Shown: one piece after another, positions 1,176 through 34,995 of the stretch
How positions within the stretch are numbered: the first letter of the stretch is position 1
Layout: each line of letters opens with the position of its first letter
Origin: Defluviitaleaceae bacterium
Lineage (GTDB): Bacteria > Bacillota > Clostridia > Lachnospirales > WQUN01
Direction of reading: 5' to 3'
NCBI GenBank assembly: GCA_009785615.1
Contig: WQVX01000011.1
Span: 1-35,938 of the forward strand
Length of the DNA: 35,938 nucleotides
Notes under the pieces: generated by a model
The model's database searches: none
What the model was told of the DNA's origin: nothing
The model's input: only the letters and a program-made list of their open reading frames with translations
Position numbers and translations under genes: made by a program

Positions 1176-1586
1176 GTCTCTCTCCCGACCTTCAATAGAT
1201 TAACACAATTTCATATGCAGTATCTCAAGTACACGTTCGTGGAGAGCGAGGGACGTGCCGCCATGACCACCGAAAGGTGAGAGCGATAAGCATTAGTTCC
1301 CAACAAACCTATTTGTACGGTTTGCCGCCATGACCCACATAATGATACTTCTGCCTAGCCACAGACATCGCAATGAGGGCAGCCCGTAACATATGGGGGG
1401 AGTTGCTTGTCTGACCGCATAATCGGCAGATTGGCACTATGACGTTTCTAACAAGAAACGGCTTGGGATATTCCCTCTGTCGGGGGTGCAGGGCAAATAC
1501 GACAGATTCTTAAATCCTAGAGTATTATTTGTGTGGAGTTATCCGAATATTGGATAGCTCCATTTCTATTGAAGGAGGCGGCTATA
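1176..1586 (+). other. Hairpin-rich non-coding stretch before the DUF927 gene
   Basis: About 410 bases with no gene above roughly 24 codons and visibly higher GC than its surroundings. It holds a CACC-GAAA-GGTG hairpin with a GNRA-type loop (1268-1279), CTGCC/GGCAG arms (1351 to about 1381), a bulged TCTGACCG/CGGCAGA hairpin (1410-1430), a perfect CGTTTCT/AGAAACG hairpin (1443-1460) and CCCT/AGGG arms (about 1473-1493). TGCCGCCATGACC occurs twice (1256-1268 and 1323-1335). It could be a structured RNA, a long leader or an origin; no known RNA family is recognised. Confidence 0.35.
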
Positions 1587-3392
1587 TTGCCAAATAAAGA
1601 TGTTGTAAAGGAAAATAGAGGTCAATTAATGGTTGTGACCGAAGACCACAATAGAAACTTTGTAATGAAAGGTCATGGATCTGTTACTTATATTGAGGAA
1701 ATAACAAGAACCTTGGAAACAGGGATTATCTATCTTGTATTGAAATTTGAATATGGGGGCGAATGGCAAACAGTTACTATCCCTAGAAGTCACTTACAAG
1801 ATAGAGAGTTGTTGAAATATGCAGATTATGGGCTTAATGTTAGTAGGGGTAATATCAAGCATGTTGTAGAGTTTATACGAAGTCAGGAGAAAAAGCATAC
1901 ACCTAGACTTGTTCATGAGGGTATTGGATTCGATACGATTATGAACAAAGATACTGGCAAGGTTGAACCTATCTTCAAATGTCATGAATCCTTACCTATG
2001 GGTACAGGTTCGACGTATGCTGGAACGTATGACATCAAGCCCAAGGGCAACAAATTGGTAGGATTCCGTAAGTTCCTACAGGAAAATGTCTATGGTACTC
2101 CCTTGGAATTAGCTGTAGTTATAGGGCTAGTAGGTGTACTGATAGGATTCATTACCAAAGAGGTACAATGTCCTAATATCGTTACCAGTATCTACGGAAA
2201 AAGTAGTTCTGGGAAAAGTTCATTTGCTATGCTTAGTATTTCAATGGGTTCTAATCCAGATGAACATGCCGAAAACCCATTATTTCGTGACTTTTATGGT
2301 ACGGACAATTCGCTTATGGGTTCTCTTGATGGAAACTTTGGTTATCCGATATGTTTTGATGAAGCCAATCGTTATCAAGGCAAGGATTTATCTGCATTTG
2401 TTTATAACATGGAAGCTGGTACATCTAAGCAACGTATGACCCGAGAGGCTAAAATGCAGAAGCGCAAAATATATCATACTTCTGTTATTACTACTGCGGA
2501 AATGTCTATCATTAACAGGAATAGCCAAAATGCAGGAGAGGCGGTACGTTCCTTAGAATTTGGTAATATATCTTGGACTCGTGACGCTGCTCATTCAGAG
2601 CGTATTAAAGAATATGCGCTAAATAATTATGGTCGTCCTATAATACATCTTGCTAATAAGGTGATAACTCTAGGCAAAGCGGAAGTAATAAGACGCTTTA
2701 AGGAGAATCGCAAAACCTATCTTGCCAAAGGGAAAGTCAATGATGAATTTACGCATAGAATGTCTATCAAGTACGCTCTGCTGCTAACTACCTTACAGTT
2801 AGCCAATGAATGTATGGAGTTGGATTTGTCCTACGATTTAGTTATGGATATGTTGGTGGACAACGAATACGAAACGTCTGGTAAGCGTGACCTTAAAATG
2901 AAAACATATGATTACCTTGTCCAGACATTTAATGTAAATATTGATAAGTTTTCGATTGCATTGAATCGTAACTTAATCTTTAGTGCGAGAGGCCAAGCAT
3001 GGGGGATACAAGACCCACAGCGTAGAATATTTGTGGACAATTGCGGTAAATACCGTACTATAGTATATTTCTCCGAGCAAACATTCGAGAGGATATTGAG
3101 AGAGGGTAACTTCGAGGATACAAGTGTAATCTTGAAGCAATTGAATGAGAGCGGTTATCTTCATTGTCAGAAAGATGGTAAACGCTACCATTTGCGTAAG
3201 ACATCCGCTAATGGTTCACAAGCGAAAGTCTACGGTATTAAGCTGTATGACGACTCTGATATGGATTCCGATGAAGCACTGGCGGAGCAGTTGCATGAGC
3301 TTGATTTGCTTAAAAAGAAGCATGGTATGAAGTCTAGGGATGACGAGGATGGTATGCCTAAGTCCAGAGGTTCAAACCCAATGCTACCATGA
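1587..3392 (+). CDS. DUF927-type helicase/primase-like ATPase
   Basis: A 601-residue protein. The frame opens at GTG 1533, but AAGGAGG (1572-1578) sits 8 bases before TTG 1587, which is the better start (MPNKDVVKENRG). Residues about 204-212 form a Walker A motif (GKSSSGKSS), about 254-260 a Walker B-like PICFDEA, and about 299-307 a sensor-like strand (SVITTAEMS), matching the DUF927 ATPase family found in phages and integrative elements. Such proteins are thought to act in element DNA replication, as helicase or primase-helicase. The C-terminal third (YFSEQTFERIL...) reads like a winged-helix DNA-binding region. A leader of unusual structure precedes it, and no recognisable primase catalytic motif is visible. 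Confidence 0.8.
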   Translation: MPNKDVVKENRGQLMVVTEDHNRNFVMKGHGSVTYIEEITRTLETGIIYLVLKFEYGGEWQTVTIPRSHLQDRELLKYADYGLNVSRGNIKHVVEFIRSQEKKHTPRLVHEGIGFDTIMNKDTGKVEPIFKCHESLPMGTGSTYAGTYDIKPKGNKLVGFRKFLQENVYGTPLELAVVIGLVGVLIGFITKEVQCPNIVTSIYGKSSSGKSSFAMLSISMGSNPDEHAENPLFRDFYGTDNSLMGSLDGNFGYPICFDEANRYQGKDLSAFVYNMEAGTSKQRMTREAKMQKRKIYHTSVITTAEMSIINRNSQNAGEAVRSLEFGNISWTRDAAHSERIKEYALNNYGRPIIHLANKVITLGKAEVIRRFKENRKTYLAKGKVNDEFTHRMSIKYALLLTTLQLANECMELDLSYDLVMDMLVDNEYETSGKRDLKMKTYDYLVQTFNVNIDKFSIALNRNLIFSARGQAWGIQDPQRRIFVDNCGKYRTIVYFSEQTFERILREGNFEDTSVILKQLNESGYLHCQKDGKRYHLRKTSANGSQAKVYGIKLYDDSDMDSDEALAEQLHELDLLKKKHGMKSRDDEDGMPKSRGSNPMLP

Positions 3393-4092: not shown

Positions 4093-4143
4093 GTATGGGA
4101 ATGGGTTGTTGTTCTTACAATTTCATTCCCTTTTTATATTTCA
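4093..4143 (+). terminator. Leader hairpin before nrdG (copy A of element repeat)
   Basis: GGGAATG (4097-4103) pairs with CATTCCC (4124-4130), followed by TTTTT. The sequence from GTATGGGAATGGG through TTCTTACAAT and the T-run to TCACA is repeated before the integrase gene at 4693. It may end the excisionase transcript or act as an attenuator. Confidence 0.6.
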
Positions 4144-4162
4144 CAGTTGTAGGAGGGTAAGT

Positions 4163-4681
4163 ATGTCTATGATGATTTCTGTTGCTGATGTATGTATGGA
4201 GTCCATGGTTGACGGCGAAGGTGTGAGGGCAGTTCTGTTTGGTGCAGGTTGTACCCATGCTTGCATGAATTGTCACAATCCACAGTCTTGGGATATCGAC
4301 AATGGCACATGGGTATCACTTCAATATATTTTTGATGATTTAGGCGTTGCTACCAGAAAACTCTTAGACGGTGTTACATTTTCTGGTGGCGACCCTATGT
4401 ACCAAGCAGCAGCATTTTGCGAATTGGCTAAGATGATTCATGCTGTCCCTAACAGAGATGTATGGTGCTACACAGGTTATGTATTTGAGGATTTGATTAA
4501 TTTCCGTGACGCTAAGTACGAGTTACTAATTAATGTAGATGTGCTGGTAGATGGGCTTTATATTCATGAATTGCGGGATTTGACACTAGGTTTCCGTGGC
4601 AGTTCCAACCAACGTATTATTGATGTTCGAGAGAGTTTGAAGCATGGTACAGCCATTGAGTATGTCGTAAGAATGTTTTAA
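4163..4681 (+). CDS. nrdG: Anaerobic ribonucleotide reductase-activating protein (radical SAM)
   Basis: A 172-residue protein. ATG 4163 follows AGGAGGGT closely and is preferred over the upstream in-frame start at 4106, which lies inside the leader hairpin. The N-terminus VDGEGVRAVLFGAGC runs into C30-x3-C34-x2-C37, the 4Fe-4S/SAM motif, followed by the NrdG-typical HNPQSWD and a SGGDPMYQ motif at about 74-81. NrdG makes the glycyl radical on NrdD, so that ribonucleotides can be reduced without oxygen. No nrdD is present in the window, which is unusual: phages and genomes normally carry the two together. It may act on the host NrdD, or activate another glycyl-radical partner. Confidence 0.88.
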   Translation: MSMMISVADVCMESMVDGEGVRAVLFGAGCTHACMNCHNPQSWDIDNGTWVSLQYIFDDLGVATRKLLDGVTFSGGDPMYQAAAFCELAKMIHAVPNRDVWCYTGYVFEDLINFRDAKYELLINVDVLVDGLYIHELRDLTLGFRGSSNQRIIDVRESLKHGTAIEYVVRMF

Positions 4682-4747: not shown

Positions 4748-4777
4748 CACAGTATATTTGGTTAGGAGTTGATTATT

Positions 4778-5962
4778 ATGGATTTGAGAGGTATGCACGT
4801 TCGGGAACGTAAGGGTAAGCGTGGACGTTCATGGCAGATTATTATTGAACAGTCTCCATGTCCTGATACTGGTAAGAGACGTAGAGTATTCAAGTCTGTA
4901 TCTAATGTTACTAAGAAACAGGCTGAGAAGATGGGTATGCAGATTATGCAAGACCTTGAGACGGATTCCTATGTGAAAAGCACTACTATGACAGTTGAGA
5001 AATACTTTAGGGAGTGGTATGATACTTACATTGTGCCGTACAAGTCACCTACTACGGCAGCAACGTATTTATACAACCTTGAGAGCTATATTTTCCCAAG
5101 GTTTGGTAAGTTGAAGTTGCAGGGTGGATTGACCACTATTGAGATTCAAAGATGGATTAACGAATTATCTATTAAGAGTCCGATTAGTGACAATCCGTTA
5201 AGTCCTAAGTCTATTCGTAACCTGTACATGAATCTTAATGCAGGACTGAAGCGTGCTGTTATCTTGGGGTATATTGTAAAGAACCCAGCAGAACATATTG
5301 AATTGCCTAAATGTAAGCCTGTTAAGCCAGAGGTTTACAATGCTGCTGAACTTCAAAAGTTGTTAGAGGTTGCACAAGATACTGATTTGATGACAGGTCT
5401 TATGCTTTTATGTTGTTTAGGGATCCGTCGTTCGGAAGCATTAGCATTATTGTGGACAGACATTGATTTTGACAACGGATTAGTGAGTATTACTAAAGGT
5501 GTTGTTAGGGTTAAGTCTGGAGAGAGTGTAACGAAAAGTCCTAAGAGTGACGCAGGTACTAGAATTATTCCAGCACCTGCTGTATTGATTGATTTCTTAC
5601 GTCGTGAGAGGGTGGAGTATTTGACAAGTAAGCTACGGTATGGTGCTATGTATCACGACAACAACCTTATAGTTTGTCAACCTAATGGCGAACCATACAC
5701 TGGTGATTATTTTAGTCAGAAGTTTAGACGTTTGCTGGCCGACAATCAGCTAAAGAAAATTAGACTACATGATTTGAGACATAGCCATATCACCTATTTA
5801 TTGAATCTTGGTATTAATGTGAAGGTGATTCAGAGTAGGGCAGGACATAGTACAATTAATACTACGTTAGATACGTATTCCCATGTTTTGGATGACATGG
5901 GGCGTGAAGCTGCTGATACTCTTAATGATGGTTTGCAGTCTATTGTTGCTAGGGTACTGTAG
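4778..5962 (+). CDS. int: Tyrosine recombinase/integrase
   Basis: A 394-residue site-specific integrase. The start is ATG 4778, 9 bases after TTAGGAG; a TTG at 4769 is too close to that site. Residues 1-60 form an arm-type DNA-binding domain (basic, with a strand-rich RGRSWQIIIE). Residues about 70-165 are the core-binding SAM-like domain (TVEKYFREWYDTYIVPYKSP). The catalytic domain shows R217 (LGIRRSEAL), H331-x2-R334 (HDLRHSH), H357 (AGHSTI) and nucleophile Y367 (DTYSHV), so the active site is complete. Length and layout match integrases of Tn916-like elements and temperate phages of Bacillota. It should insert and, with the excisionase, remove the element. Confidence 0.95.
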   Translation: MDLRGMHVRERKGKRGRSWQIIIEQSPCPDTGKRRRVFKSVSNVTKKQAEKMGMQIMQDLETDSYVKSTTMTVEKYFREWYDTYIVPYKSPTTAATYLYNLESYIFPRFGKLKLQGGLTTIEIQRWINELSIKSPISDNPLSPKSIRNLYMNLNAGLKRAVILGYIVKNPAEHIELPKCKPVKPEVYNAAELQKLLEVAQDTDLMTGLMLLCCLGIRRSEALALLWTDIDFDNGLVSITKGVVRVKSGESVTKSPKSDAGTRIIPAPAVLIDFLRRERVEYLTSKLRYGAMYHDNNLIVCQPNGEPYTGDYFSQKFRRLLADNQLKKIRLHDLRHSHITYLLNLGINVKVIQSRAGHSTINTTLDTYSHVLDDMGREAADTLNDGLQSIVARVL

Positions 5963-7754: not shown

Positions 7755-8006
7755 ATGTCTGAAATAATTTTAGATATAAACGCTGTGCCTTCATATTTGA
7801 TAGCAACATTACGAGTAAAAAAAGTAAAAGTTCAAGAAGCTAATCACGTTATAACCATTCTACCCATTGAGGAGTCAGTAGCGAAAAAAGATTATAGTTG
7901 CCCTTTTCTTGGCATAGCATCCGACAGCAAATTAACGGTGGATAAATTTCTCGAATGGAAATCTGAAGAAAGAGACGCTGAATATGAAAAAGAATTACAT
8001 TCTTGA
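7755..8006 (+). CDS. Antitoxin of PIN-domain toxin module (copy 1)
   Basis: An 83-residue protein starting MSEIILDINAVPSYLIATLR, with AAAGGAG well placed before ATG 7755. It overlaps the toxin gene by 23 bases, as expected for a toxin-antitoxin pair. It is homologous to the protein at 34361: both share the I(L/M)DINA(V/L)PS opening, a basic V-K-V strand, and a (L/M)(T/S)VDKFLE C-terminal helix. The C-terminal part probably wraps the PIN toxin; the N-terminus is likely the DNA-binding dimer part. No standard antitoxin fold (MazE, RHH, Phd) is clearly recognised, so the family name is left open. Confidence 0.75.
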   Translation: MSEIILDINAVPSYLIATLRVKKVKVQEANHVITILPIEESVAKKDYSCPFLGIASDSKLTVDKFLEWKSEERDAEYEKELHS

Positions 8007-8400
8007 TGCGTGTGCTTTGATTGCGGCAATTAAACAAGAAGAAGGTTCGTTGATTATTGCCGAATTATACGAAGAAGCGGCGAAGGGCGATGCAAACCTT
8101 ATTATGAATAAAGTCAATTTGCTTGAGGTCTATTATGGTTTTCGGCGTGACCACGGCAAGGAGTATGCCGATATAATCCTCAAAAGTGTTATAGACTCTG
8201 TTGTAGAAATTTCTGATATAAGCATTGCAGTTTTGGTAGAGGCTGGACGGATAAAATCTGCCTATCGTCGCATATCACTTGCGGATTCTATTGCCCTCGC
8301 TGAAACAGTTAGCTGTGGTGGATATCTTGTAACAGCAGATCATCACGAAATGGATATATTAGATAAAGCAGGAGTTGTGAATTTTTTGTGGATTCGATAA
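7984..8400 (+). CDS. vapC: PIN-domain toxin, VapC type (copy 1)
   Basis: A 138-residue PIN domain ribonuclease. The acidic metal-binding residues are all present: D8 (ILDACAL), E48 (NLLEVYYG), D101 (LADSIALAE) and D119 (TADHHEMD). VapC toxins cut tRNA or rRNA when the antitoxin is lost. ATG 7984 lies within the antitoxin gene, so translation is coupled. The copy at 34582 has the same four residues and the same ending (F-W-IR), so the two modules are paralogues. The active site looks intact, so the toxin is probably functional. The pair lies between two ~280-base direct repeats. Confidence 0.9.
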   Translation: MKKNYILDACALIAAIKQEEGSLIIAELYEEAAKGDANLIMNKVNLLEVYYGFRRDHGKEYADIILKSVIDSVVEISDISIAVLVEAGRIKSAYRRISLADSIALAETVSCGGYLVTADHHEMDILDKAGVVNFLWIR

Positions 8401-27987: not shown

Positions 27988-28016
27988 TTGACAAAATAAA
28001 ATAATAATGTTATAGT
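27988..28016 (+). promoter_or_regulatory. Strong sigma-A promoter of the XRE-ABC-OmpA operon
   Basis: Consensus TTGACA (27988-27993), 17-base spacer and TATAGT (28011-28016), so a start near 28023 and a leader of only about 20 bases. It lies in very AT-rich DNA. Confidence 0.8.
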
Positions 28017-28043: not shown

Positions 28044-29225
28044 TTGAAGGCAACAAAAGTAACCGAATTCGGAAAATTTATGAGAGCGTTAAGAGCAGAA
28101 AGAACTGAAACGCAAGAAGATACAGCTAAAATTTTAGGATGCACAAAATCATATTTATCAACTATTGAATTAGGCAAGCAACCCATCCCTTCCGGATGGA
28201 TAGAAAAAATAATACAAGCTTACGAACTAAACGAACCTATTGCAAATAAGTTAAAATTATCGGTTTTAGATATTACCAAAACAGTTAAGATAGATACAGA
28301 TAACTTGTCTATAGGCAAAAAGCATTTGGCAATAAATATGGCAGGTAAAATTGAGCATATGCAAGATGGCGAAGTAAGTGAAATTAATGAAATTTTAAGA
28401 AAAATTGAAGGTCATGATATGTCTGCTATGGGAGGATGGGAAACACAAGAGTTTAGATTATTAGTTGGGGACGGGAGCTACGCTTCAAATAGTGAAATTT
28501 ATCCGCAAAGTATGTTTGTGTACTTTATAGGATACAAAGGTGAAGATGGAGTATTGGTAGACTGTAGAAACAGCCCTAAAAAAATATGCTTAGTTTGCGA
28601 AAATAAAGAAAAAGCTCCCAAAATACAGAAAGAATGGTATAATATTAAGCCATGTACAGTTATTAGCACAAGGGCAACTGTTAACAACATAAGAGGTCTT
28701 GTAAACAGCAGATTATTTAACGCCGAATTATTAAAAACAGGGCTAAATATTAAAAATGATGAACAAAAACTTTTTGATAAATACTTGAGTAAAATGGTTT
28801 TGAAAGGGGCTTTTGGAGAAATTGAGTTTAATAGAGTAAAGTGGTGGTTTAAAGGGACTGTAGCGTTTGATGGACACAAAGTAGAGGTTAGGATAGATAA
28901 ACGTAAAGACGGCGAAAAATTTTTTGGAATAATATATGATAGTTTAACAGAGATGCTACAAAAGTTTAAAGAAGAATTATGCTTAAAGCATTTGGATCAC
29001 AAAGATGCAACATTGGTTTTTAATACAGAAGTGGTTACAAAAGAAAACGTATTATCAGAAATAAGGCCAGCAAAAATTGAATGTATATGTGAATATGGTT
29101 ATAGTGTAGAATTTAATTTTAGAGGCGTACCTTTTGCCGGGGCTTTTATAAATTTGATCAAGAAGGAAGATGAAAAAGAAGATATCAAAATAGTTGGATT
29201 TTATATGAGCCTAAATAATTCTTGA
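28044..29225 (+). CDS. XRE-family regulator with unrecognised C-terminal domain
   Basis: A 393-residue protein from TTG 28044, 9 bases after AAAGGAG. Residues about 8-66 are a Cro/C1 helix-turn-helix (MRALRAERTETQEDTAKILG, YLSTIELGKQPIP, WIEKIIQAYEL). The rest matches no family I recognise: a strand-rich part (about 130-250, EFRLLVGDGSYASN, FVYFIGYKGEDGVLVDCRN) and a lysine-rich part to the end that includes VKWWFKGTVAFDGHKVEVRI. Two cysteines lie close (ICLVCENK), but no metal site is evident. It opens the ABC transporter operon with a 45-base gap to the permease, so it may sense the transported solute and regulate its own operon; that is inference. Confidence 0.7.
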   Translation: MKATKVTEFGKFMRALRAERTETQEDTAKILGCTKSYLSTIELGKQPIPSGWIEKIIQAYELNEPIANKLKLSVLDITKTVKIDTDNLSIGKKHLAINMAGKIEHMQDGEVSEINEILRKIEGHDMSAMGGWETQEFRLLVGDGSYASNSEIYPQSMFVYFIGYKGEDGVLVDCRNSPKKICLVCENKEKAPKIQKEWYNIKPCTVISTRATVNNIRGLVNSRLFNAELLKTGLNIKNDEQKLFDKYLSKMVLKGAFGEIEFNRVKWWFKGTVAFDGHKVEVRIDKRKDGEKFFGIIYDSLTEMLQKFKEELCLKHLDHKDATLVFNTEVVTKENVLSEIRPAKIECICEYGYSVEFNFRGVPFAGAFINLIKKEDEKEDIKIVGFYMSLNNS

Positions 29226-29270
29226 AATCAAATAAGAAATAAGATTAAAAAGATAAGAGGTTAGTAATAA

Positions 29271-30047
29271 ATGGATATATTATCACAGGGATTATCAAAG
29301 TTAAAGGCACTTAGTATACCTATTTTAATATTGATTGTGTGGTTAATGGCCGGTGACTCTTTCCGTCCCGCTATATTGCCATCATTTGAAAGCACAATGC
29401 AAGCACTTATAGACTCAATTGAAAATGGAATGATGATAGATGCTTGGCTGCACTCAATGAATAGGATAATGATAGCAACATTAATTAGTGTAAGTATAAG
29501 TGTCCCGTTAGGGCTATTAAGCAGAAGTTTTAAAATAGTAAAAGAAATTGTTATGCCATTTACAAATTTCATGAGATATATTCCGGTAACTACATTTTAT
29601 CCATTATTAATTGTATGGTTGGGCATAGATGAAGAAATGAGAATAGCATTTTTGTTTGTAGCAACATTCTTTGTGTTCTTTCCATCAGTTATGTTGATTT
29701 TAGAAAATATAAACAACAGCTTAATAGAAAAGGCATTAACAAGCGGTGCAAATAAATGGAAAATGATGATACATGTATATATACCGGCAGCATCACCATT
29801 ATTATGTAAATCGTTTCTTTCGATGCTTAGTGTTGGATTTACATACATGATTATTGCAGAAACAGTAAATCCAAGGCATGGGCTTGGTTATCTAATGCTG
29901 ATAGGCAGCGCAAGAGGACGCACAAACTTAGTATTTGCAGCAATTTTAGTAACCATATTAACAGGTGCCATAATTGATATAATAGGAAGTTTTATTATAA
30001 AAAAAGCATTTAGGTGGCATTTTGAAAGCACTAAACAAAGTGTGTAA
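29271..30047 (+). CDS. ABC transporter permease, NitT/TauT-like
   Basis: A 258-residue inner-membrane permease with about six spans. The EAA-type coupling loop is visible as EKALTSGANKWKMMIHVYIP, typical of the SsuC/TauC/NrtB family that imports sulfonates, nitrate, taurine or cyanate-like solutes. AAGAGG lies about 10 bases before ATG 29271. The ATPase gene follows after 12 bases. The paired binding protein is probably the OmpA fusion at the end of the operon, whose solute domain resembles NMT1/NrtA-like proteins. The solute itself cannot be told from sequence. Confidence 0.88.
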   Translation: MDILSQGLSKLKALSIPILILIVWLMAGDSFRPAILPSFESTMQALIDSIENGMMIDAWLHSMNRIMIATLISVSISVPLGLLSRSFKIVKEIVMPFTNFMRYIPVTTFYPLLIVWLGIDEEMRIAFLFVATFFVFFPSVMLILENINNSLIEKALTSGANKWKMMIHVYIPAASPLLCKSFLSMLSVGFTYMIIAETVNPRHGLGYLMLIGSARGRTNLVFAAILVTILTGAIIDIIGSFIIKKAFRWHFESTKQSV

Positions 30048-30059
30048 AGGGCGAAAAAT

Positions 30060-30668
30060 ATGATTGTTGTAGATAATATCACAATAAAATTTGGAAATAA
30101 GGTTATATTTGAAAATTTTACAGCAAAGTTCTCAGATTTGGATATTTACTGTATTGTTGGGAAAAGTGGATGCGGAAAATCCACTTTGCTTAGAGCAATA
30201 AGTGGTTTGCTAAAACCAAGTGCCGGGCAGATAATAGTAAATGATAAAGTAGTAAAAAAGCCCTCGGCAGAAATAGCTGTTATGTATCAAAGATATGAAA
30301 ATTATCCCTGGTTATCGGTGTTGGATAATACGTTGTTTCCTGTTAAAATGCAAAGGAAAATTACTAATGCAGATAAAGATAGGGCAGTGGATATTTTAGA
30401 AAGGTTTGGATTAGCTGATGATTTAAAAAAGCTACCTCACGAATTAAGCGGAGGCATGAACCAAAGATTGGCAATGGCAAGCGTTATAATGAATAATCCG
30501 CCTGTATTGCTAATGGATGAACCTTTGAGTGCTTTAGACCCGGAAAATAGAGAAAAGCTTCAAGATTTTCTGTTAGAGTTTAATAATGGAGATAATCAGA
30601 TTATAATAGTAACGCATTCTATGGAAGAAGCAGAAAAATTGAGTAAAGGGAAAATTTTAAAACTGTAA
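30060..30668 (+). CDS. ABC transporter ATP-binding protein, NitT/TauT-like (short form)
   Basis: A 202-residue ATPase. Walker A GKSGCGKST (34-42), Q loop (Q77, MYQRYENYPWLSV), signature LSGGMNQR (129-136), Walker B VLLMDEP (149-155), D loop SALD and H loop (THSMEEAEKL) are all present. It ends a few residues after the H loop, about 40 residues shorter than typical SsuB/TauB proteins, and lacks the usual C-terminal helices. AAAGGG precedes ATG 30060. It should power the adjacent permease. Confidence 0.9.
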   Translation: MIVVDNITIKFGNKVIFENFTAKFSDLDIYCIVGKSGCGKSTLLRAISGLLKPSAGQIIVNDKVVKKPSAEIAVMYQRYENYPWLSVLDNTLFPVKMQRKITNADKDRAVDILERFGLADDLKKLPHELSGGMNQRLAMASVIMNNPPVLLMDEPLSALDPENREKLQDFLLEFNNGDNQIIIVTHSMEEAEKLSKGKILKL

Positions 30669-30691
30669 ACTCAAAAAGGAGGCGGGGAAAA

Positions 30692-31240
30692 ATGCCTATA
30701 AAAAAATTGTTTATTAAAGAAGATGACAGTCCTAAGAAAATGAATGACGTGGATGTAATGGAAATTTTAGCAAGCATCCCTGATGTCAGTGATTATGAAG
30801 GGCAAGGAGAATATAATCTAATTGCAGCAAATATGGACGGGGTAGAGACTGTAGAAGATGTATATTCTAAATTCGATATGACAGATAACAAAATTTATGA
30901 AGTTGTGCCCTATATTGATAGCCTTCCCAACACTATGGACACAGTATCAAAAAAGACAACATTGCTAAATCTTTTGCAAAATGCTGCTAAACTTGATCTT
31001 GCTGATTTGGTTGACAATGCTGATAAATGTCTTGATGCCTTAAAATCTGCCCGTGGAATTGTAATTGAAAAAAGTGCATCTACAGTTCAGGATATGGAAG
31101 AGATAATAGCAATGAAAAGACGAGAAATTGAAACATTAAGATCAAATATTGAGGTTGAAATGGCAAGATGCGACAGGCAAGTAGCACTTTATGATGAAGA
31201 GTCAGACAAGATTAGGGTCATTAAAAATCATATTGTATAA
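30692..31240 (+). CDS. Hypothetical coiled-coil protein of the ABC-OmpA operon
   Basis: A 182-residue soluble protein with a strong AAGGAGG site before ATG 30692. No family is recognised. Residues 1-90 are acidic and mixed (SIPDVSDYEGQGEYNLIAA); about 90-130 is helical (LLNLLQNAAKLDLADLVDNA); the C-terminal 50 residues form a likely coiled coil (MEEIIAMKRREIETLRSNIE). It lies 16 bases before the membrane coiled-coil gene and 23 bases after the ATPase gene, so it is part of the same transcript. A partner or scaffold for the next protein is a reasonable guess only. Confidence 0.65.
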   Translation: MPIKKLFIKEDDSPKKMNDVDVMEILASIPDVSDYEGQGEYNLIAANMDGVETVEDVYSKFDMTDNKIYEVVPYIDSLPNTMDTVSKKTTLLNLLQNAAKLDLADLVDNADKCLDALKSARGIVIEKSASTVQDMEEIIAMKRREIETLRSNIEVEMARCDRQVALYDEESDKIRVIKNHIV

Positions 31241-31256
31241 ATAAGGAGGAATTGTC

Positions 31257-32015
31257 ATGAATGGTATTTTCATAATAATTGGTGTAGTTATAGTTTTATT
31301 GTTGATATTAACTCCAATGGGCAGAACTATTGCCAGGAGTGCAAAAAATTTGTTTCTTGCAGATGCTATGTCAAATCCAAAAGCTGCAAAAGCTGTATTC
31401 TTAACTGCAATTGAAGATGCTCAAAAAAAGAAAGCTCAGGTAGCAGACTTGCACCATAAATTATCCGGTAGGCTTATAGAAGCTGATAGAAATATGAAAG
31501 ATGTAAACAAAGAATTGGAAAACACTGTAAGTAAAATGGAACGTGTAGTTGCATCAGGAGGTTCTGACGAAGATTTAAGCTTATTAAACGATAAAAGACT
31601 GTCACTTCTGCAAAGGCAAGAATCTATCAATAATATTCTTATTGAGTTAAAGCCCAGGGTAGAAGAAGCAGCAGAGGCACAAAGATTGCTTGATGCAGAA
31701 GTTAGGAAGTTGAAAGAGCAAAAAGACCTTAAAATAGCAGAGATGGAGACAGCAAAAGCCATAGCGGATACATACAAACAATTGGATGGAATTGATGTAT
31801 CTGCAACGGGCAAACTTCTTGAAAAGTTTAACGATAACCTTGCGACTGTTAAAAGAAGTGCAGATGGCGGCAGAGCAGTACATGAAAATAAATTAGAAAC
31901 CAGAGAAGCGCATATGAATAAAAGATTGGCAGCACTTGAAGGTGACGAGTTTATACGGCAGTTAAAAGCTAAGCATGATAATAGTAACGCCCCAAACAGT
32001 AACAACCCAAACTAG
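31257..32015 (+). CDS. Membrane-anchored coiled-coil protein, PspA-like in shape
   Basis: A 252-residue protein: one N-terminal membrane span (residues 3-19, GIFIIIGVVIVLLLIL) and a long helical coiled coil (about 40-235, rich in A, E, K and Q; VEEAAEAQRLLDAEVRKLKE) with a serine/asparagine-rich tail (NSNAPNSNNPN). The helical pattern recalls PspA/IM30 proteins, but those lack a membrane anchor and no conserved PspA motif is evident, so it is not named. AAGGAGG precedes ATG 31257. Its operon partner, the OmpA fusion, follows after 62 bases. An envelope-stress or cell-wall scaffold role is inference. Confidence 0.6.
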   Translation: MNGIFIIIGVVIVLLLILTPMGRTIARSAKNLFLADAMSNPKAAKAVFLTAIEDAQKKKAQVADLHHKLSGRLIEADRNMKDVNKELENTVSKMERVVASGGSDEDLSLLNDKRLSLLQRQESINNILIELKPRVEEAAEAQRLLDAEVRKLKEQKDLKIAEMETAKAIADTYKQLDGIDVSATGKLLEKFNDNLATVKRSADGGRAVHENKLETREAHMNKRLAALEGDEFIRQLKAKHDNSNAPNSNNPN

Positions 32016-32077
32016 TTTTGCAGCTATAGTAAAAGTTGTGATAGTTTATATATGAGAAATATGAGAGGAGAATGGTT

Positions 32078-33694
32078 ATGAGAGCTTTACATCGTTTGAC
32101 TCCCTTGGCGAAATGTTTAATTGTAGGGGTAACAGTTTGTTGTGTAGCAGGCGGCTTGTATTTTGCAGGATTGTTTGATGATATACTTCCCGGTTCAAAT
32201 GGGTCTGAAACAAACGTAACATCATCAGTAAGTGGAGAGCAATCGAGTACAAGTACTGCTACAGGAACCGGTAGCGCACCCATCCAAGCTCCGGCAGATA
32301 GAACAATTAGGATTTCATTAGACGAGTGGGTTGGATGGAAAAATTTATTGGATGCTAACGGTGGTCTTAGGACACAGCCCGGATCAATATATTACAACCT
32401 TGGCCTTGACATTGAATTTGTAATAATTAACGATGCTGACCATTCATCTTCTGCATTGATTGCCGGAAGTATAGATGGAGCAGGATATACAATTAACCGC
32501 TACGCATTCTTGTTTGATCAATTTGTAGAAAATGGCCTAAACCCGGTTTATATTGGAACATTGTATGCCTCTACCGGTGGTGACGGTGTTATTGCAAGAG
32601 AACAGTTTGCAAGCATTGAGTCATTGTATGGACAACGGATAGGTGTTGCCAGATTTAGTGAGGCAATGGCTTTGATGGATTGGTTAATTGCTCAGTCCAG
32701 TTTAACAAATGAGCAAAAAGCAACAATGAGAAACGATTTGGTTATGTTTGACAGTCCGGATGATGCAGCAAGAGCATTCTTTGCTGGACACTTAGAAGCC
32801 GCTGTAACATGGCAGCCTTACTTGAGCCAGGCTCAAGAAGCACCGGGTACACACCTTCTGTTCTGCACAACTCATGCAACAAACTTAATTACAGGCGGAT
32901 TGGTATTTGACTACGGTTTTGTTCAAGCTAACGAAGATCTTTTGGTAAACCTGATGCAAGGAGCAATTGATGCAAAAGACATGTACTTGGTAGAATTATC
33001 AGTTATTAGAGCATCCATGCCAATGTTTTCTTTGGAAAGTGACGCTTCTATAATTGAAATGGCCGGAGATGCCACCCTATTAACAGCAAGGGATATGAGA
33101 GACAGTATACAAGGTATAGACCAGTTGTTATTTGCAGAAATGGCTGATATATGGGCATATCGTGGAGAGCAAGCAAATAGGGCAAACGCAGACATTGCAT
33201 TTACAAATAGAATTGTTAATAGGTTGGAACTAGAGCAAATAGATGTACTTGCACAACCTGTAGGCCCTGCATTTACAGAAGAAGAAAGAGGCCAGGTTCG
33301 CGATCAGGCGGAACAAGGACATCGAATAGCAAGTTTGCTGACCATGAGGGCAGATATCCGCTTTGAGCCAAACACGGCTGTTATACTGCAAGACGGTAGC
33401 TTTTCGGCAATTGAAAGCTTTGTAGATACAGCAACTCTTATCAATGGTTCAATTATCCTTATCGAAGGTAATGTAGCAAATATTGCAGGTGATGCAGATA
33501 ATACACCATTTGCAGTGCAGTTATCCTACGAGCGTGCTAGAGAAGTTGCCCGCCAAATGCAGTTAAGGGGCATTGATCCAAACAGAATGGTTATTGCAGG
33601 CAATGGTATCGAAAACCAAATTGCTTCAAATGATACAGAAGATGGACGCATTTTAAATCGCAGAACAGACGTAAGCTTCATAATAATGGAGTAA
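32078..33694 (+). CDS. Membrane-anchored solute-binding domain fused to OmpA-like domain
   Basis: A 538-residue protein; GAGAGGAG is 7 bases before ATG 32078, preferred to ATG 32072. One N-terminal span (about 12-32, CLIVGVTVCCVAGGLYFAG) is followed by a serine/threonine linker (about 36-70) and a periplasmic-binding-protein-like domain (about 75-380, RISLDEWVGWKNLL, IDGAGYTINRYAFLFDQFV, AAVTWQPYLSQAQE), resembling NMT1/NrtA-type binders of the permease family upstream. The C-terminal part (about 410-538) is OmpA-like: EGNVANIAGDAD, LSYERAREVARQMQLRGID, DGRILNRRTDVSFI. OmpA domains bind peptidoglycan. The protein therefore joins solute capture and cell-wall binding. No lipobox is seen. Confidence 0.82.
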   Translation: MRALHRLTPLAKCLIVGVTVCCVAGGLYFAGLFDDILPGSNGSETNVTSSVSGEQSSTSTATGTGSAPIQAPADRTIRISLDEWVGWKNLLDANGGLRTQPGSIYYNLGLDIEFVIINDADHSSSALIAGSIDGAGYTINRYAFLFDQFVENGLNPVYIGTLYASTGGDGVIAREQFASIESLYGQRIGVARFSEAMALMDWLIAQSSLTNEQKATMRNDLVMFDSPDDAARAFFAGHLEAAVTWQPYLSQAQEAPGTHLLFCTTHATNLITGGLVFDYGFVQANEDLLVNLMQGAIDAKDMYLVELSVIRASMPMFSLESDASIIEMAGDATLLTARDMRDSIQGIDQLLFAEMADIWAYRGEQANRANADIAFTNRIVNRLELEQIDVLAQPVGPAFTEEERGQVRDQAEQGHRIASLLTMRADIRFEPNTAVILQDGSFSAIESFVDTATLINGSIILIEGNVANIAGDADNTPFAVQLSYERAREVARQMQLRGIDPNRMVIAGNGIENQIASNDTEDGRILNRRTDVSFIIME

Positions 33695-33747: not shown

Positions 33748-33796
33748 AACGTGCTCAATCGGTGACAAAATGTTATCGGTTGGGCACGTTGTTTTT
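33748..33796 (+). terminator. Terminator of the XRE-ABC-OmpA operon
   Basis: AACGTGC (33748-33754) pairs with GCACGTT (33784-33790), with TCGGT/ATCGG inside, then GTTTTT. The loop includes CGGTGACAAAATG, as in the terminator at 9854. Confidence 0.85.
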
Positions 33797-34255: not shown

Positions 34256-34360
34256 AAATCCTTTTTGACATATTTCCTCCCCTTGCGTATAATAATAATT
34301 GAATTTTTATACGGCAGATTATAAGCTAAAATGCAAAACACAAATTTGGAGGTTATCACG

Positions 34361-34585
34361 ATGAGAGATAATGTTATGGATATTAATGCATTGCCGTCAC
34401 TACTGTTTAGACTGTTTTCTACAGCCAAAGTCAGCGTTTCGGAGATAGACGGAGGACTTCATGTAATGCCCATAAAAGAAGAAAATTCAATTGACGGTCT
34501 TATTGGCATACTTGCTGATTATCCCGAAATGTCAGTTGATAAATTTTTAGAACGCATGAGAGCCGACAAGGAGCTAGACCGATGA
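34361..34585 (+). CDS. Antitoxin of PIN-domain toxin module (copy 2)
   Basis: A 74-residue protein; TTGGAGG ends 8 bases before ATG 34361, so the upstream in-frame ATG at 34331 is rejected. It shares the DINA-LPS opening, an acidic/basic centre and MSVDKFLERMRADKELDR C-terminus with the antitoxin at 7755. The stop overlaps the toxin start by four bases (ATGA), coupling translation. It lies downstream of the candidate RNA and its terminator. It should neutralise the toxin next to it and, through the paired complex, regulate the operon. Confidence 0.75.
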   Translation: MRDNVMDINALPSLLFRLFSTAKVSVSEIDGGLHVMPIKEENSIDGLIGILADYPEMSVDKFLERMRADKELDR

Positions 34586-34995
34586 AAGTTTATGTATTGG
34601 ATGCTTGTGCGCTCATGGCTGTTTTATACAGAGAAAAAGGCGCAAGCGTGGTTAAAGCGGCATTTGATGAAGCAGACAAGGGCAAAGCAAAGATTATCAT
34701 GCACAAGGCAAATCTTCTCGAAGTTTATTACGATATTTTGCGAAATCTCGGCAAGGAAAAGGCAGATGCTATAATATCCGAAATAAAGAAGCGTCCCATC
34801 AGCTTCAATGCGGAAATAACTGATGAAATTTTTATAGAAGCCAGTCGGCTAAAATCATCATATAAAATTTCATTTGCAGATTCTTTTGCACTGGCACAGG
34901 CGTTGATTTCAGGTGGCTCGCTGTTGACTTCCGACCATCATGAGTTTAATGTGATTGAGGGCAAGGAAAGTATACATTTTGCGTGGATCCGTTGA
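34582..34995 (+). CDS. vapC: PIN-domain toxin, VapC type (copy 2)
   Basis: A 137-residue PIN ribonuclease with D7 (VLDACAL), E47 (NLLEVYY), D100 (FADSFALAQ) and D118 (TSDHHEF), all four metal ligands in place. It is clearly homologous over its whole length to the toxin at 7984: same (L/M)-DACAL start, ANLLEVYY, LADS/FADS, and an F-A/L-W-IR ending. Two related modules 27 kb apart suggest duplication or independent gain; cross-neutralisation is possible. A terminator at 35045 closes the unit. Confidence 0.9.
   Translation: MKVYVLDACALMAVLYREKGASVVKAAFDEADKGKAKIIMHKANLLEVYYDILRNLGKEKADAIISEIKKRPISFNAEITDEIFIEASRLKSSYKISFADSFALAQALISGGSLLTSDHHEFNVIEGKESIHFAWIR

Follow-up and report, generated by a model that had tools for sequence, protein, structure and literature searches.

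The window analysed here, the whole of the 35,938-nucleotide contig WQVX01000011.1 of a Defluviitaleaceae bacterium (positions 1 to 35938), holds five consecutive genes for a permease (PERM) and an ATPase (ATP) of the ATP-binding cassette (ABC) type, two coiled-coil proteins (CC1 and CC2) and a solute-binding protein joined to an OmpA-like domain (SBP-OmpA). Judged by comparison of loci across bacterial and viral collections, these five genes are a real conserved cassette. They probably represent one working unit that is traded between phages and bacteria, because giant phages, Bacillus phage G among them, have a counterpart of every gene of the set; no direction of transfer between the two is claimed. 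The reading that we favour, and to which we give about an even chance, is that of a transport-and-membrane-scaffold cassette common to large phages and some Clostridia, in which import is organised by a PspA-like scaffold. The parts of the window copy are as follows.

29271-30047, + strand: PERM, NitT/TauT-type ABC permease, 258 amino acids (PF00528, BPD_transp_1, E 7e-18; SsuC/TauC-like)
30060-30668, + strand: ATP, short ABC ATPase, 202 amino acids (ABC ATPase family, E 6e-30; motifs)
30692-31240, + strand: CC1, soluble coiled-coil protein, 182 amino acids (homologue of phage G gp246; no transmembrane segment)
31257-32015, + strand: CC2, transmembrane-anchored PspA/IM30-like helical-hairpin protein, 252 amino acids (Pfam family matches, hhalign, AlphaFold2 model, topology)
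32072-33694, + strand: SBP-OmpA, 540 amino acids (OmpA C-terminal domain; weak NMT1/SsuA match mid-protein; AlphaFold2 model)
32102-32164, + strand: N-terminal transmembrane helix of SBP-OmpA, residues 11-31 (AlphaFold2 model; predicted N-in)
32306-33226, + strand: solute-binding domain, residues ~79-385 (type-2 periplasmic-binding-protein fold; TauA/SsuA/Thi5-like)
33278-33691, + strand: OmpA-like domain and its leading helix, residues ~403-540 (PF00691, PDB profiles, AlphaFold2 model)

Conservation and phage carriage of the cassette

The gene order PERM-ATP-CC1-CC2-SBP was found in 39 loci, near-duplicates included. Locus counts in this work should not be read as frequencies, since the collections and search patterns behind them differ and near-duplicates are included. 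Besides the five genes, a given neighbour is present in at most 7 of 38 loci; the few neighbours typed are phage replication genes. A scan with CC2 on its own returned 32 viral contigs, all of them already in the SBP-OmpA set, and among 391 genomes of the window's class CC2 was present in two, both times inside the cassette; this co-occurrence test carries some bias, its CC2 profile being derived from members of the cassette. Across loci the median spacing between CC1 and CC2 is -1 bp, which suggests that the two are translationally coupled.

The best match to SBP-OmpA in the collections searched was gp249 of the Bacillus jumbo phage G, which is 44% identical over nearly the full length. Phage G carries the same five genes in the window order, and each could be aligned to its counterpart: the permease is gp243 (45% identity), the ATPase gp245 (48%), CC1 gp246 (29%, E 9e-11), CC2 gp247 (28%), and both gp249 and gp250 are SBP-OmpA proteins. 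Unlike the window, phage G has this second, tandem SBP-OmpA (gp250), a small open reading frame (ORF), gp244, between the permease and the ATPase, and gp248 before gp249, and it has no counterpart of the XRE-type regulator gene that precedes the cassette in the window. GenBank labels the cassette genes of phage G only as ABC and OmpA/MotB domain proteins. To our knowledge, phages have not been known to carry complete ABC importers.

Scanning IMG/VR yielded 39 viral loci with the SBP gene, most of which have the whole set. Genes that recur in their flanks encode phage DNA polymerase, primase, DnaB-like helicase, Sak4-like recombinase, exonuclease, RNA ligase and NAMPT. A terminase domain scored above the cut-off in 12 of 31 phage records, phage G and Lak-A2 among them, and a thirteenth match lay in a bacterial genome. 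In the Lak megaphages of Prevotella and on a 161-kb contig (L063) the genes stand in the order CC1-like (a candidate), CC2-like, SBP-OmpA, permease, ATPase. The CC2-like proteins of these loci match the CC2 profile with a probability of 89 and gave no direct match to the PspA profile. In one Lak cassette with this rearranged order (L018:7361-13727) the coiled-coil proteins are longer and the ATPase is extended at its N-terminus. On another phage contig (L028:9830-11676) two overlapping ORFs take the place of a single SBP-OmpA gene, owing to a frameshift or a sequencing error.

Among bacteria the cassette is sparse. SBP-OmpA was found in none of the 95 other genomes of the window's family and order; in the 391 genomes of the class, the window's included, close full-length homologues were found in two others (G331 and G386) and a distant one in G204. 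The window's order also includes Clostridium sp. 12(A), which is G331. The genome scan gave 20 loci, 11 of which (L064-L074) are true relatives in Clostridia and Bacillota. One of these, the chromosomal contig L074, has the rearranged order of the Lak type (CC1, CC2, SBP-OmpA, permease, ATPase) with clear CC1 and CC2. On five further Clostridia contigs (L065, L066, L069, L070 and L071) the arrangement is SBP-PERM-ATP-X-SBP followed by a VWA protein, with neither CC1 nor CC2 detected; in four of the five a TelA-like protein comes after the VWA protein. In a tree of SBP proteins the window protein, whose composition is unlike that of the rest, has a long branch that the tree does not resolve; its nearest neighbours are a contig of a Bacillota metagenome-assembled genome (L064) and phage G.

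Proteins of the cassette

On family matches, PERM and ATP are the membrane and energising parts of a NitT/TauT-type ABC importer, with uptake itself predicted. The motifs of ATP are intact (Walker A, Q-loop, LSGG, Walker B and H-loop). Its short length is shared: ATPases of CC2-bearing loci have 193-242 amino acids (median 205), whereas those of related loci without a detected CC2 have at least 224, so that a short ATPase marks the coiled-coil cassettes. The Lak loci, with their divergent coils, are the exception to this rule. CC1 and CC2 may take over the role of the missing part of the ATPase.

CC2 is, as far as profiles and a model can tell, a membrane-anchored relative of PspA/IM30 (ESCRT-III superfamily), predicted to form polymers. 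Twenty-seven of the 32 family members (the window protein and 31 homologues) match PF04012 (PspA_IM30), with a best E value of 7.8e-11. When the CC2 profile was compared with PspA/LiaH proteins of Clostridia by hhalign, about 100 columns of the N-terminal half aligned (probability 93, E 3e-7), and the proline of the PspA '...NP' motif fell on the invariant Pro41 of CC2. The AlphaFold2 model consists of a transmembrane helix, a hairpin (41-99/104-178) and then a helix (181-241), which is the PspA/Vipp1 layout; against Vipp1 chains, 211 of 214 residues aligned with a Z of 12.2. A search of PDB sequences with the CC2 profile gave no PspA match; the evidence that ties CC2 to PspA is therefore that from Pfam, hhalign and the model. 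Canonical PspA has an amphipathic helix alpha0 and no transmembrane segment, a trait that CC2 does not share. The transmembrane helix is strong in 32/32 members, and we therefore file CC2 as transmembrane-anchored PspA-like, not as PspA. More positive residues follow the helix than precede it in all 32, which by the charge rule places the coil in the cytoplasm. CC1 had no Pfam, PHROG or PDB relative above coiled-coil noise, and hhalign showed no link between it and CC2 or PspA.

The AlphaFold2 model of SBP-OmpA has a pLDDT of 87 and a pTM of 0.81, with pLDDT mostly above 90 over the solute-binding domain. Its top Foldseek matches are TauA, SsuA and Thi5 (TMt 0.68-0.75 to TauA). The C-terminal part has the OmpA C-terminal fold: PF00691 is matched at E 9.5e-10 over profile positions 2-98 of 98, and PDB profiles of OmpA, Pal and MotB to 4e-17. 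In 31 of 41 homologues there are more positive residues before the transmembrane helix, which by the same rule puts the domains outside. The solute-binding motifs E85, W86, Y139-R143, S167-G172 and T246-Y250 are invariant or nearly so in the 41 sequences, suggesting one ligand class.

An earlier note on this DNA, made from the letters alone, had listed most of these parts correctly: a NitT/TauT-like permease, an ATPase shorter than its family (as it turns out, a family trait of CC2-bearing loci), two coiled-coil proteins of which one is membrane-anchored, and a single protein with a membrane span, a solute-binding domain and an OmpA-like domain, whose OmpA region does adopt the expected fold. 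What it had missed is that CC2 is PspA-like and that the cassette is mostly a phage item.

Readings of cassette function

In the reading that we favour, PERM and ATP would form a NitT/TauT-type importer whose binding protein is not released, the transmembrane helix holding the solute-binding domain to the membrane while the OmpA-like domain, at the opposite end of the protein, probably makes contact with the cell wall. At the cytoplasmic face, CC2, anchored by its own helix, would polymerise on the membrane around the importer, and CC1 would be its soluble partner or a link to the ATPase in one physical complex. In effect, a single conserved small solute would be taken into the cell at a stabilised membrane patch, to the benefit of a large phage in a long infection or lysogeny; a few hosts would have kept the cassette. 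The predicted topology, with the CC2 coil inside and the SBP outside, is consistent with this arrangement.

Several observations weigh against it. Three loci have no detected ATPase homologue beside the permease, and in two, of which one is truncated by the contig end, neither permease nor ATPase is present in the stretch seen. The window CC2, searched alone, misses PF04012 and has no confident family, and unrelated coiled coils (PI3K, FliJ, dynein and others) reach the same Z as Vipp1 against the CC2 model; we set these aside as generic coiled-coil matches. In OmpA and Pal, the Asp of a GHTD motif and a partner Arg contact diaminopimelate. The Arg (Arg488) is invariant in 41/41 homologues, but the GHTD position holds Asp in only 8 of the 41 and Ala in the window protein, so that wall binding is plausible as a prediction. 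The proposal in the earlier note that solute capture is fixed to the cell wall is thus weakened: the OmpA fold and the Arg are present, the Asp mostly is not; in any case the model has SBP-OmpA held to the membrane by its N-terminal helix. Finally, a phage could conceivably use the complex for a purpose other than uptake.

Such a purpose is set out in a possible alternative, to which we give clearly less weight. The cassette might be an envelope-stress or phage-conflict device, in which the chief task of the ABC pair and SBP-OmpA is to drive the PspA-like scaffold, as a sensor or a mechanical tether, import being secondary or lost; membrane repair, delay of lysis or exclusion of other phages are the roles proposed. 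That CC2 groups with PspA, a membrane-protection family, and that a wide range of large phages keeps the set agree with this idea, as does the second Clostridia group, in which SBP-PERM-ATP-SBP adjoins VWA and TelA genes. VWA and TelA genes have known links to stress. However, the conservation of the SBP motifs and of every ATPase motif is what a working importer would show, and the PADLOC defence library matched only generic ATPase, HTH and OmpA/ZorB families. A listed defence system such as Zorya was rejected, as these matches are generic only and no MotA-like protein is among the operon families.

A stronger version of the scaffold reading appears doubtful to us: the cassette would be a widespread large-phage module, domesticated by a few bacteria as well, that builds an ESCRT-III-like membrane scaffold round its own importer; the phage would refit the host membrane with a wall-tethered uptake site, with CC1 and CC2 replacing the C-terminal regulatory part of the ATPase and gating transport directly.

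We consider it unlikely that the cassette is a plain auxiliary nutrient importer, possibly for a precursor of nicotinamide adenine dinucleotide (NAD), with the coiled-coil genes as minor accessories. The solute-binding fold is of the TauA/SsuA/Thi5 type, and genes of NAD metabolism lie near several copies. In one locus (L041:7356-8611) genes for a PnuC-like protein and a nicotinamide mononucleotide (NMN)-adenylyltransferase-like (cytidylyltransferase-like) protein stand inside the cassette, between ATPase and CC1; homologues of both are directly downstream of another (L024); and in Clostridium sp. 12(A) a Prs-like (phosphoribosyl pyrophosphate-synthetase-like) gene, NAMPT and NAD synthase are just upstream. 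Of 27 records, 13 carry NAMPT and 6 carry PnuC. Yet CC1 and CC2 are kept as tightly as the transporter, and PnuC would make a second importer of NAD precursors redundant. The proximity to NAD genes is marginal, with a combined p of ~0.03 from records that are not independent, and many large phages have NAD salvage genes anyway. For this reason an NAD precursor was rejected as an assignment, and is retained as a lead for ligand screening only.

Highly improbable is the proposal of the earlier note itself, that the six genes form one unit for transport and sensing, with the XRE regulator reading out the state of the wall-fixed receptor: gene order and a shared promoter favour it, but the XRE gene is absent from all 68 related loci scanned (0/68). 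The features concerned are these.

27988-28016, + strand: promoter TTGACA-17-TATAGT (sigma-70-type, 11/12 matches; also read directly)
28044-29225, + strand: XRE-type regulator, 393 amino acids, TTG start (PF13560 helix-turn-helix, HTH, E 1e-9; C-terminal half without known family)
33748-33790, + strand: intrinsic terminator (20 pairs, then T-rich sequence)

Six ORFs do lie on one strand with short gaps between one strong promoter and one terminator, as that note said, and the C-terminal half of the regulator is indeed unrecognised. Weaker promoter-like matches in the region number 39 against 26.6 expected, only modestly above chance. In relatives, the first 124 residues of the regulator match short stand-alone proteins, and the second half gave one weak partial match. 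The claim that XRE reads the receptor is thus left without comparative support, and XRE was rejected as a member of the unit. Compared across loci, the gene is a local neighbour outside the conserved cassette, and it may still control the window copy. As a conserved unit the six-gene version is largely refuted: five of the genes keep their order and CC1 and CC2 stay with the ABC and OmpA genes, while XRE stands apart.

Genomic setting and comparison with known systems

The window copy is chromosomal, since its flanks hold ordinary chromosomal genes and no phage structural genes are in view around it. To the left are cheR/cheA/cheW, mcsA-mcsB-clpC and a chemoreceptor gene (by sequence) and a gene for an HtrA-like protease (Pfam); on the right a PIN-domain gene and its small partner follow. 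The guanine-plus-cytosine content of the operon genes (32-42%) against that of their neighbours (34-42%) is not decisive. The assembly has 3.29 Mb in 240 contigs and is 97% complete. Right after the operon, a perfect 12/12 sigma-70-type promoter (34265-34293) lies upstream of a small ORF (34331-34585) and the overlapping PIN-domain ORF (34582-34995), which together look like a toxin-antitoxin pair. A second PIN-domain-like gene is at 7984-8400; the two products have 138 and 137 amino acids and similar N-termini. The left end of the contig (1533-5962), with a large ORF (1533-3392), a radical-SAM-activase-like ORF (4106-4681) and a tyrosine-recombinase-like ORF (4769-5962), looks by eye like the end of an integrated element. 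A third OmpA-domain protein of the same assembly (L003, G000:C177:4936-5169) has an open frame of 486 amino acids.

The NitT/TauT importers TauABC, SsuABC and ThiXYZ share their permease and ATPase families and their SBP fold with the window cassette. Unlike in those systems, the SBP of the window is membrane-anchored and fused to an OmpA-like domain, the ATPase is ~50 amino acids shorter, and the set includes two coiled-coil proteins. With PspA, Vipp1 and LiaH, CC2 shares the conserved Pro, the alpha1-alpha2/3 hairpin and the downstream helix; it differs in a real transmembrane helix in place of the amphipathic alpha0 and in its very divergent sequence, and the cassette has no PspF, LiaRS or AAA+ partner.

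No account was found in the literature of a relative of the host's 'phage shock' membrane-protection protein that phages carry and that always stands beside a membrane-anchored solute receptor, nor of the compact form without AAA+, the CC1 partner or carriage by phage G, Lak and many other large phages, with subscription journals and preprints outside the coverage of this search. If the cassette works as proposed, it offers a compact five-gene system, present in a phage that can be cultivated (phage G), for studying how a PspA-like scaffold affects a transporter and what reasons lie behind the investment of very large phages in the host membrane.

The closest known systems are bacterial operons, predicted from genome context, that combine PspA and TM-Snf7 homologues, an AAA+ ATPase, an ABC ATPase, a permease and a PBPB-OmpA protein, for which a link between membrane remodelling and solute transport was proposed (Ravi et al. 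2024, mSystems, PMC11237479). The words 'bacteriophage' and 'caudovirales' are absent from the text of that paper. In its gene content the window cassette is of this operon kind, likewise with an ABC ATPase, a permease, SBP-OmpA and a transmembrane-anchored PspA/Snf7-like protein. An AAA+ ATPase, which those operons have, was found neither in the window operon nor among the typed recurrent neighbours. The window cassette differs further in its conserved soluble partner CC1, its short ABC ATPase and its carriage mainly by large phages, and it supplies a concrete list of partners, CC1 included, for a bacterial association so far known from genome context only.

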